Shown piece by piece: positions 13,852-15,964 of a stretch of DNA of 64,000 bases; within the stretch, counting starts at the first letter, position 1, and every line of letters begins with the position of its first letter. This stretch comes from Phormidium sp. FACHB-1136 (GTDB lineage Bacteria > Cyanobacteriota > Cyanobacteriia > Phormidesmidales > Phormidesmidaceae), in assembly GCF_014697375.1 (NCBI RefSeq), contig NZ_JACJRS010000004.1, forward strand, positions 1-64,000. Direction: 5' to 3'. The position numbers were made by a program, and so were the translations under genes. The notes beneath the pieces are model-generated. The model ran no database searches and was not told the origin of the DNA. It saw nothing but the letters and a program-made list of their open reading frames with translations.

Positions 13852-15018
13852 CTAGCAATACTCCACAGACACCTCCTTTTGGAAGCGCCGCAGCACCGTC
13901 ACTAGATCTTCAATTAGGCTACGGCGAATGGAAATATTTTTGGGCAGCAGCGGGTTTTGGTAAAACTCGTTAATACTTTGCCCCACCAAAAAGTGGATGG
14001 CATCGGCCTGGAGGATTTCGCGGGCTAGGAGATAGGCTCCATTGTTGTCAAAGCGCAGACGGCCTAGATCGCAGTGGCACTGGCGGATGTACTCCGTGGC
14101 TTTGGAGAGGGTCAAAATCCCCTCAGTTACCAAGTCCACGCCGCTCAGCATCCCAATGGGGGGTAATTCTCGCCGCATGGTCGAGAGATCCATTTCTACA
14201 ATTTCCCCCAAATAGCTGGCCACGATATTGCCCGTGGTGCCACCGCAGACCACCTTGCGCCCCTCAAAGTCCAGCAACCGATTCACAAAGGATTCGTCCT
14301 GTCCTTCCTCTAGGGGGGGGCCAGTGAAAATCATCAGCGGGTGGCGCTGACGCACATATAGCCCCACCATGGTGGCATCGTCGCCGATCTGACCCTGGTA
14401 TAGCTCAAAGGTGTGGTCAATCACCCGCTTGACGATGGATCGCGCCGTGTGGGCCTGACTGCCAATTACCCCCTCTACATACTGGGCAATGTTGTCCCAG
14501 CCCCAACCAAAGTTCATGGTCATGCCCATCCCGGCATAGAGCACGCCGTCGCTAATCGCCCCCAAAAAATCCCCTCGGTCGAGTTGTCCTTCGGCGGATT
14601 GCAGCTTGCGGCCTAGAATTTCCTGGGTTTCCATGGCCAGGGGTTCGACGCGGCCCCGGTGACAAAACACCGGAGGCGGATTATCGAAATTAATCACCTT
14701 GAAATGGTTGGTATGGCCATCTACCCAGAGAATCGTGAAGGTGGAATAGGCAATTTTTCGCACCTGACAAATGGGCAGGGTGCCAATCACCGTCTTCAGC
14801 ACCTCCTCCAGGGGCACATCGGCGTTCAGCATGGTGATCAGAATTTCCGTGGTCAGGGTCGCCAAAATGTTGGCCTTTACCCCACTGCCCAACCCATCCG
14901 ACAGCACCACGGTGGTTTGGGTACCCGTTTTGAGATACTTCACCTTGTCGCCACAGAGTTCCTCGCCAAGCTTATTCAAACTGGCGCTGTGGATATCAAT
15001 AAAGGCATCTAGGGTCAT
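13852..15018 (-). CDS. SpoIIE-type PP2C serine phosphatase
   Basis: A 388-residue protein. The N-terminal ~250 residues are a SpoIIE/PP2C-like phosphatase: TVVLSDGLGSGVKAN carries the metal-binding Asp-Gly, GDFLGAISDGVLYAG the second Asp-Gly and QIGDDATMVGLYV the last metal Asp. The C-terminal ~130 residues (GPPLEEGQDESFVNRLLDFE, VVCGGTTGNIVASYLGE) form an extra domain that I know from phosphatases next to sensory FeFe-hydrogenase genes in clostridia. It is the last gene of a three-gene set with a PAS protein and a [2Fe-2S] protein; the gap to the PAS gene is 3 bp. It probably dephosphorylates a protein in response to a redox or ligand signal; the target is unknown. Confidence 0.8.
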   Translation of the reverse strand: MTLDAFIDIHSASLNKLGEELCGDKVKYLKTGTQTTVVLSDGLGSGVKANILATLTTEILITMLNADVPLEEVLKTVIGTLPICQVRKIAYSTFTILWVDGHTNHFKVINFDNPPPVFCHRGRVEPLAMETQEILGRKLQSAEGQLDRGDFLGAISDGVLYAGMGMTMNFGWGWDNIAQYVEGVIGSQAHTARSIVKRVIDHTFELYQGQIGDDATMVGLYVRQRHPLMIFTGPPLEEGQDESFVNRLLDFEGRKVVCGGTTGNIVASYLGEIVEMDLSTMRRELPPIGMLSGVDLVTEGILTLSKATEYIRQCHCDLGRLRFDNNGAYLLAREILQADAIHFLVGQSINEFYQNPLLPKNISIRRSLIEDLVTVLRRFQKEVSVEYC

Positions 15019-15021
15019 TGA

Positions 15022-15678
15022 CTAACGGCCCTCCTCCCTGGGGATATTCCCCTGGGCCAATTCAGCGGATCGGGGATGTCTCGTCTTTAAATCCTGGGGA
15101 TGCACCGCCACGGTGTCCACGGCTTCGTGCTGAAGCATTTGCACAATTTTGAGCAAACTCACCTTAGTTTGGGCGGTGGTTTCCCCCAGCAGCCCTGCGA
15201 TTTCCTGGACCACCTTCATTTGGTTATCTACGACCTGATTCACCTGTTTAATGGTGGTTTCTTTAATGGCCATGAGCTCCCGTCGTTCCGTGAGTTGATG
15301 GCTGTAGTCTGCCATGATGCAAGCAATAATTCCCTCATCGGGAATTGGAAAAATGACCTGATTAACTAATAAATCATGCTGGGCAAATTCTCTGGGTTTA
15401 CCACGATACACTTCCCCCGTTTCCCAGACTCGCCGAAAGTCGCTGACATCATCCAAAATCGTGGCGGCGGGCTGGCCAATGACATCGTCGGGCTGTACCT
15501 TAAACATCCGACAAAAGGCCGGATTCACCAACTTAATGTAAAGATCTGCATCCACCACAATCAGACCATTGGGGTCATATTCCCACAGCAGTTGCCAGAG
15601 GTGATGGTGATCGTGACGGCCACCACCGCCCCCCAAACTGGGCCGAGACGAAGGACTAGGAAAGGTAGAATCTGCCAT
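15022..15678 (-). CDS. PAS-domain protein resembling the tail of sensory FeFe hydrogenase
   Basis: A 218-residue cytoplasmic protein. After a short serine/glycine/histidine-rich head (residues 1-27) it has one PAS domain (~30-135; ILVVD-type start LIVVDADLYIKLVNPAFCRM). A helical stretch follows, with QVVDNQMKVVQEIAGLLGET and TAQTKVSLLKIVQML. That helical motif is the one that ends HydS-type sensory hydrogenases in clostridia, as I remember them, but the hydrogenase H-cluster domain is not present here. It is sandwiched between the [2Fe-2S] and phosphatase genes, with 3-10 bp gaps on both sides, so the three products probably act as one signalling unit. What the PAS domain binds cannot be told. 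Confidence 0.75.
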   Translation of the reverse strand: MADSTFPSPSSRPSLGGGGGRHDHHHLWQLLWEYDPNGLIVVDADLYIKLVNPAFCRMFKVQPDDVIGQPAATILDDVSDFRRVWETGEVYRGKPREFAQHDLLVNQVIFPIPDEGIIACIMADYSHQLTERRELMAIKETTIKQVNQVVDNQMKVVQEIAGLLGETTAQTKVSLLKIVQMLQHEAVDTVAVHPQDLKTRHPRSAELAQGNIPREEGR

Positions 15679-15688
15679 AACAAAATCC

Positions 15689-15964
15689 CTACTGGGCGTG
15701 GGCTAGGGCCGCTTGAATCATCGGCAGAATTCGCTCGGTAAAGATGCTATCTACATTTTGGGGACTAATGCCCAAAAAGCGATGATCCTGAAATTTCATC
15801 ACAATTCCCTGACTGCACGTTTCTAAACAGAACGAGCCCTTCAGTTCAATCACATCCCCTAGGTTGTGAGCCAGGATGAGTGCCTGAAGCTGGGGCAACA
15901 CATCGTAGACCCCCATTTGGTGACAGGCCGAACCCATGCAGAGAAACAGGTTTTCTTTCGCCAT
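15689..15964 (-). CDS. NuoE-like thioredoxin-fold [2Fe-2S] ferredoxin
   Basis: A 91-residue protein with two cysteine pairs spaced as in NuoE/Shethna-type [2Fe-2S] proteins: CMGSAC (residues 9-14) and CLETC near residues 46-50, within LKGSFCLETCSQGIVMKF. It would carry or sense electrons. It is the first gene of the unit with the PAS protein and the phosphatase. I took the ATG at 15962-15964 (MAKENLFLC); the longer frame upstream has no relation to the family. In clostridial gene sets the same protein type sits beside a sensory hydrogenase, and here it may be the redox input. Confidence 0.8.
   Translation of the reverse strand: MAKENLFLCMGSACHQMGVYDVLPQLQALILAHNLGDVIELKGSFCLETCSQGIVMKFQDHRFLGISPQNVDSIFTERILPMIQAALAHAQ

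Follow-up and report, generated by a model that had tools for sequence, protein, structure and literature searches.

A putative HfsABC-type redox-signalling module without the [FeFe] hydrogenase head in Phormidium sp. FACHB-1136 and its probable link to the [NiFe] hydrogenase Hox of cyanobacteria

The hfsABC(D) genes of Thermoanaerobacterium encode, according to the available parts of PMC5707799 and PMC11837493, an [FeFe] hydrogenase with a PAS domain (HfsB) and a protein resembling serine phosphatases (HfsC). In T. saccharolyticum, deletion of hfsA or hfsB resulted in more ethanol and more adhE, deletion of hfsC and/or hfsD gave no ethanol rise, and both hfsC and hfsD were needed for the rise; the authors interpreted these phenotypes as regulation, and in the same article HydS, which lies next to a Ser/Thr kinase, is cited as putatively sensing H2 (PMC5707799). 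We analyzed a set of three genes at positions 13852–15964 of a 64,000-nucleotide stretch of the genome of Phormidium sp. FACHB-1136 (the window), encoding a small [2Fe-2S] NuoE-like protein, a PAS protein, and a SpoIIE-type phosphatase. Our analysis suggests, with a probability of about 0.58, that this trio is an HfsABC-type redox-signalling module without the [FeFe] head, serving the HoxEFUYH hydrogenase in cyanobacteria.

Three open reading frames (ORFs) were found on the minus strand exactly where the original prediction had placed the set. They form a tight array, the NuoE-like gene being followed by the PAS gene after 10 nt and the PAS gene by the phosphatase gene after 3 nt. The view that the three proteins are partners of sensory [FeFe] hydrogenases was borne out in Ruminococcus albus 7, one of the three records found by a protein search of plasmid records. 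The annotation of its locus reads, in order, Rex, adhE, phosphotransferase, two (2Fe-2S), [Fe-Fe] hydrogenase, SpoIIE phosphatase, and 4Fe-4S; this [Fe-Fe] hydrogenase is presumably the HydS cited in PMC5707799. Homologues of all three trio proteins surround HydS in the gene order of the window: the window phosphatase had 37% identity with its R. albus counterpart over 387 aa (E 2e-90), the PAS protein 33% with the PAS part of HydS (E 2e-21), and the [2Fe-2S] protein 39% with a counterpart beside HydS (E 1e-18). The R. albus hydS locus (sensory group C/M2f [FeFe] hydrogenase) shares with the window a [2Fe-2S] protein, a PAS domain with the output helix, and a SpoIIE phosphatase with the C-terminal domain, and differs by its two [2Fe-2S] genes. 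Judged by sequence comparison, the trio is homologous to the clostridial set beyond a generic PAS/PP2C likeness; its likeness to hfsABC(D) of Thermoanaerobacterium is one of published description, not of sequence.

The upstream gene (15689–15964, minus strand) encodes an HfsA-like protein of 91 aa, assigned to the [2Fe-2S] thioredoxin-fold (NuoE-like) type by its conserved cysteines (CX4C...CX3C) and its R. albus match. Its Pfam match to 2Fe-2S_thioredx (PF01257; E 0.017, 15.4 bits) was below the gathering cut-off of 24.8, which an R. albus homologue passed with 36.6 bits. Cysteines 9, 14, 46, and 50 were invariant in all 65 aligned rows, window included; the rows were chosen by BLAST beside the phosphatase and were obtained for 64 of 95 loci, the remaining loci being outside the alignment. 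As in HfsABC-type sets, the window locus has upstream a small four-cysteine protein, putatively of the [2Fe-2S] kind.

The middle gene (15022–15678, minus strand) encodes a stand-alone PAS protein of 218 aa which, by Pfam and hhalign, corresponds to the C-terminal portion of HydS/HfsB and lacks the H-cluster and FeS domains. In the profile search that had been proposed with the original prediction, it matched PAS_9 (E 1.5e-7, residues 36–92), alongside the PF07228 match of the phosphatase and the sub-threshold PF01257 match of the NuoE-like protein. HydS proteins carry PF02906, PF04060, and PAS, and the window protein matches the section after the FeS domain; neither the H-cluster domain PF02906 nor the FeS domain PF04060, which precedes PAS in HydS of loci L029, L033, L073, and L126, was found in it by Pfam. 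When a profile of 33 stand-alone PAS proteins was compared by hhalign with one built from the last 170 aa of 11 HydS proteins, the probability was 100% and E 2.8e-49 over 166 columns, including the helix.

In the structural model (mean predicted local distance difference test value, pLDDT, of 80.7), the PAS domain is followed by a single helix of 64 residues (126–189), with pLDDT of about 73–82 over its last 40 residues. The core of this output helix (residues 146–175; 15154–15243, minus strand) is the most conserved part of the protein and is common to clostridial HydS; the helix quoted in the original prediction, VVQEIAGLLGET, covers residues 156–167. The window protein therefore has the PAS domain followed by the conserved output helix of HfsABC-type sets. 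Residues A161, L164, G165, and E166 were identical in 89 of 89 rows belonging to three architectures. The motif was present in all 40 stand-alone PAS proteins and in 40 of the 48 longer ones, three of which were Cache-type; the eight misses were variants of the same helix. Among the 6798 other ORFs of the loci, it was found in a single one, itself a HydS-like PAS protein (L072). The PAS protein beside the phosphatase was obtained from 88 of the 95 loci, the rest being outside the alignments.

Instead of PF02906 and PF04060 of the hydS/hfs system, the stand-alone proteins have features not usual in HydS. The model and alignment revealed an N-terminal Trp helix (residues 27–32; 15583–15600, minus strand). 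Of 41 stand-alone rows, 40 have W28 and 39 have W32, the latter occurring in none of the 45 fused rows. C56 was found in 37 of the 41 stand-alone rows, including all 23 cyanobacterial ones, and the corresponding position was E, M, R, or Q in 40 of the 45 fused rows. A fold search with the PAS model matched LOV (flavin-binding) and many other PAS proteins, and no cofactor was assignable from the fold.

The downstream gene (13852–15018, minus strand) encodes an HfsC-like protein of 388 aa, predicted to be a SpoIIE-family PP2C phosphatase from its match to SpoIIE PF07228 (E 4e-18, residues 33–220), invariant residues, and model. D24, D41, G42, D157, and D213 were invariant in 49 of 49 rows, and the four aspartates are presumably the metal-binding residues of PP2C. 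In the model (mean pLDDT 88.8), residues 3–225 form the part spanned by PP2C structures (3pu9: VIA Z 25.0, root-mean-square deviation 2.7, 218 aligned residues). The C-terminal domain (residues 226–388; 13855–14343, minus strand) had no Pfam match, and a PDB sequence search with it gave nothing better than E 1.1; the VIA matches 3pu9, 3ke6, and 2isn extend into this part, which the list barely covers. At E ≤ 0.001, the domain was detected in 16 of the 291 genomes of our class sample, the same 16 as the whole family, and in none of the others. A downstream SpoIIE phosphatase with the C-terminal domain of the family, as in HfsABC-type sets, was thus found in the window. RsbU and SpoIIE phosphatases, which share the fold and the conserved aspartates, are controlled by a regulatory domain or a partner protein (PMC5468089 and PMC12143880, in the parts available); in the trio, by contrast, the putative regulator is a separate PAS protein, and the phosphatase has the extra C-terminal domain. 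The phosphatase ends with EYC (13855–13863), a terminal cysteine seen in 34 of the 95 loci.

The original prediction described the set as standing without the hydrogenase. We indeed failed to find an [FeFe] hydrogenase (PF02906) in the genome of the window or, at E ≤ 1e-10, in any of the 22 trio-bearing cyanobacterial genomes, in agreement with a published survey (PMC5186783, as far as its available text goes); the [NiFe] hydrogenase Hox, however, had been overlooked. Unlike in the hydS/hfs system, the enzyme next door in cyanobacteria is [NiFe] Hox, and the cyanobacterial partner is most likely the [NiFe] rather than an [FeFe] hydrogenase. As had also been proposed, the trio was sought in other cyanobacteria. 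In the class sample (291 genomes; HoxH at E ≤ 1e-100, phosphatase at E ≤ 1e-60, PAS at E ≤ 1e-15), HoxH was encoded in 85 genomes, and the phosphatase and the PAS protein in 16 each; these were the same 16 genomes, and all of them also had HoxH. The hypergeometric P of this co-occurrence was 9.5e-10 by genome and 1.3e-5 by genus (phosphatase in 11 and HoxH in 50 of 130 genera), both values being uncorrected for kinship. When six genomes of the phylum sample (G109, G119, G151, G157, G187, G207) are added, all 22 phosphatase-bearing cyanobacterial genomes had the PAS protein, the NuoE-like protein, and HoxH. Neither the PAS nor the NuoE-like protein was found in four HoxH-positive, phosphatase-negative control genomes.

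In 13 of the 16 class genomes, the phosphatase gene follows hoxH on the same strand at a distance of about 0.9–4.3 kb, the others being G000 (the window's genome), G427, and G264; in 15 of the 22 genomes, it is less than 5 kb from hoxH. Among the 20 named cyanobacterial loci (named loci being the best 80 of 565 confirmed candidates), hoxH was upstream of the trio in 12, and hoxW without hoxH was found in four more (L039, L041, L042, L049). Three of the other loci (L050, L051, L067) stop less than 1 kb before the phosphatase match begins, and no hox gene was found in the stretch of the remaining one, L037. In L021–L024, the first four cyanobacterial relatives with the full trio, it directly follows hoxH. 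The nearest named relative, L036, has a phosphatase 90% identical to that of the window and hoxH immediately before the trio. In Planktothrix, Arthrospira, Okeania, Spirulina, Oscillatoria, and Leptolyngbya, the trio lies within the hox or the hoxW-hyp region. The hox and hyp genes were labelled through BLAST matches to L021/L023 proteins. Pfam or NCBIfam checks covered HoxH, HoxY, and HoxF of the window's genome, HoxH of L036, HypA of L042, Hcp of L023, and three HoxW-like proteases; two HoxW-like proteins had no Pfam match and matched NCBIfam TIGR00072. For hoxE, hoxU, and hypB, the labels rest on BLAST and are presumptive.

Since the trio travels with the [NiFe] hydrogenase in cyanobacteria, it probably reports the redox state of that enzyme to the cell; its domain composition marks it as an HfsABC-type module that has no head and would work like the output half of a sensory [FeFe] hydrogenase system, without being such a hydrogenase. 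Fermentation or H2 turnover at Hox would exert an electron pressure that sets the redox state of the [2Fe-2S] protein; HoxF has a domain of the same kind at its N-terminus. The [2Fe-2S] protein, or the PAS domain itself, would then alter the PAS protein, whose long invariant output helix may dock on the SpoIIE-type PP2C phosphatase and hold or release it. The phosphatase would dephosphorylate a Ser/Thr phosphoprotein, by which hydrogenase or fermentation functions could be adjusted. That electrons flow from Hox through the [2Fe-2S] protein to the PAS protein and that the helix controls the phosphatase is inferred, as are the target and the physiological outcome. The suggestion of the original prediction that another redox signal is sensed and a putative phosphoprotein acted upon appears reasonable.

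The trio bears on why cyanobacteria keep a bidirectional hydrogenase and on how its state is sensed. If Hox itself is the sensor and passes electrons to the NuoE-like protein, a reading that we consider less likely than not, a Ser/Thr-phosphatase pathway would be tied directly to cyanobacterial H2 metabolism, with a PAS protein and a phosphatase reading hydrogenase turnover. The trio is a signalling set that is conserved, small, and amenable to testing, located in known genera within the hox or the hoxW-hyp region, and as the output half of a putative clostridial H2 sensor occurs here apart from the catalytic head, the contribution of the head can be tested by comparison. We found no precedent in the open-access literature for the trio in cyanobacteria or for such a Ser/Thr-phosphatase link to H2 metabolism; the available portions of PMC2674450, PMC3858816, and PMC5186783 do not mention the trio.

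HoxBC–HoxJ has as its output a histidine kinase acting on HoxA, and cyanobacterial Hox is a bidirectional hydrogenase of group 3d. By description, the Ralstonia-type HoxBC–HoxJ resembles the trio in that a PAS-containing protein is coupled to a [NiFe] hydrogenase (PMC5707799 and PMC8163306, both in part), and differs in that its output is through the histidine kinase, while that of the trio is through a predicted Ser/Thr-type phosphatase and concerns a bidirectional hydrogenase. Extra ORFs are likewise present inside the hox operon of Synechocystis (sll1222, ssl2420, sll1225); their identity with the trio was ruled out from the published description, which assigns them to DUF820 and to a toxin–antitoxin pair of the PIN type (PMC4963859).

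Several observations weigh against a module serving Hox. The trio was absent from 69 of the 85 HoxH-bearing class genomes, so Hox does not need it. In the window's genome, hoxE, F, U, Y, and H were found on contig C191 (L118) and the trio on C195, so that it does not follow hoxH there, and in G427, of the same genus, the trio is 730 kb from hoxH. Of the 18 non-cyanobacterial stand-alone loci, 12 showed a NuoE-like gene next to those for PAS and phosphatase, and L056 (cut by the contig end), L060, L064, L065, L068, and L071 did not; the trio may therefore be a pair in the latter. The kinase-like gene adjacent to HydS in R. albus had a BLAST counterpart in only one of 97 loci, and a conserved kinase neighbour of the module was ruled out. 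The genetic support is weakened as well. Deletion of hfsA in T. saccharolyticum lowered the expression of hfsB, C, and D two- to six-fold (PMC5707799), and in T. thermosaccharolyticum the return of hfsD alone to an hfsABCD deletion gave high ethanol, like the hfsB deletion, so that the high-ethanol phenotype there needs no HfsC (PMC11837493, in part).

The separated trio is nevertheless under purifying selection, as indicated by ratios of nonsynonymous to synonymous substitution rates (dN/dS) against G427 of 0.042 for the NuoE-like protein, 0.077 for the PAS protein, and 0.033 for the phosphatase. Decay of the trio after parting from hox was ruled out by these values (0.03–0.08) and by the same trio in G427, where one flank is proS-hisB-pilT as in the window (names by eye). 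The trio genes are separated from each other or from hox, with none missing, in G187, G151, G109, G119, G264, G000, and G427. In the first four of these, which belong to family f13 (L025–L028, L124), the trio genes are dispersed and all kept.

The parting of the trio from hox in the window's genome and in G427 would fit an explanation which we consider unlikely, though it survives best among the alternatives: the module has its own input, a general redox or ligand signal sensed through a PAS cofactor or through reduced ferredoxin/NADH at the [2Fe-2S] protein, and is merely co-regulated with hox in a fermentation regulon, Hox being at most a target. Stand-alone forms near Rex-type and NfnAB-like genes in L061 and L071 (NfnAB-like also in L065; Nfn by eye), PFOR-like genes (by eye) in six cyanobacterial loci, the resemblance of the PAS model to many PAS domains, including LOV, and the frequent C56 are consistent with it. 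A closer tie to hydrogenase is suggested by HoxH in 22 of 22 cyanobacterial trio genomes and by an [FeFe] and/or HoxH-like [NiFe] hydrogenase in 17 of the 18 non-cyanobacterial stand-alone genomes, counts with no background rate for comparison; neither type was found in the remaining genome, G474 of Planctomycetota.

It is improbable that the trio is an accessory of Hox maturation or repair, for example through phosphatase control of HoxW processing, and not a sensor. Its position between hoxH and hoxW in several loci, with hypA-hypB next in some, argues for such a role and against the sensory one, as does the phosphatase gene adjoining hoxW without hoxH in G109 and G119. [FeFe] hydrogenases are not known to use HoxW, yet homologues of the same three proteins accompany them; besides, the 69 Hox-bearing class genomes mentioned above manage without the trio, and the PAS–helix–PP2C anatomy is typical of signalling. 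Lastly, the likeness would hardly be a generic PAS/PP2C/ferredoxin one with no clostridial link, the outcome that the original prediction had named as fatal to it: Pfam alone gives a general PAS, a general SpoIIE, and a sub-threshold PF01257, but this explanation is refuted by the gene-by-gene homology and order in R. albus, the output-helix motif, and the phosphatase C-terminal domain, limited to the family in the class sample.

As to the origin of the headless module, the original prediction held that the PAS protein had lost its catalytic domain here. The head is absent, as stated; however, the headless form was found in several other phyla, and the cyanobacterial rows nest among these, so that the loss, if any, probably preceded cyanobacteria. 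When 95 phosphatases were placed in a quick maximum-likelihood tree, the 28 cyanobacterial ones formed a single group with a Shimodaira–Hasegawa-like approximate likelihood ratio test (SH-aLRT) value of 100. This group nests in one of 45 rows (40 stand-alone, 5 unlabelled) with Chloroflexota, Verrucomicrobiota, Desulfobacteraceae, Armatimonadota, Planctomycetota, and others, at a support of 94, below the 95 mark of the tool. The HydS-linked rows were outside the 45-row group, together with one stand-alone row, L076. For six of the 95 (L025–L028, L051, L072), no PAS architecture could be assigned at the locus itself, and they were grouped as 'other'; L067, with a phosphatase shorter than 340 aa, was left out. 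Because the tree has a midpoint root only, it does not polarise gain against loss of the head; whichever way the first change went, cyanobacteria probably received the module in its headless state.

Vertical descent from small-genome relatives of family f30, which we take to be Gastranaerophilales, is disfavoured, as the phosphatase is paired with a fused HydS in the six loci examined from this family. The f30 rows were sister to the whole multi-phylum stand-alone set on a long branch (1.84, support 90), neither inside nor beside the cyanobacterial rows. This family made up 83 of the 93 phosphatase-positive genomes of the phylum sample. In these loci (L029–L032, L034, and L035), the phosphatase is accompanied by a fused HydS-like protein, with another HydS-like protein close by (checked by Pfam in L029).

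Outside cyanobacteria, the set adjoins an [FeFe] hydrogenase of the electron-bifurcating type (PF02906 and Fe_hyd_SSU) in L054 and L066 and lies beside similar gene sets in L064 and L076; no hydrogenase was found near it in several other non-cyanobacterial stand-alone loci. In the deltaproteobacterial L087 (7704–10004), the same PAS domain and output helix follow a Cache-HAMP-receiver receptor, and L100 and L114 have proteins of similar length (by length only). A tentative generalization is that one phosphatase-output module has been wired to unrelated inputs: an [FeFe] head, a Cache-HAMP-receiver, or, in the headless form beside [NiFe] Hox, that hydrogenase as a sensor feeding the NuoE-like protein.

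Some minor features of hox clusters were also observed. A hybrid cluster protein gene (PF03063 in L023, 11149–12798) is located between hoxF and hoxU in L023, L047, and L053, Planktothrix and Arthrospira being among them; the same placement was reported for Lyngbya (PMC2674450, part available). An ORF of 341–355 aa resembling a quinone oxidoreductase (by eye) occupies this place in the window's genome (L118, 6400–7467) and in G427 (L121, 11294–12319). In Verrucomicrobia G465, G470, and G472 (L058, L063, L065), HoxH, 68–69% identical to the cyanobacterial query, was found together with the stand-alone PAS-phosphatase set, and a joint transfer of the two is possible.

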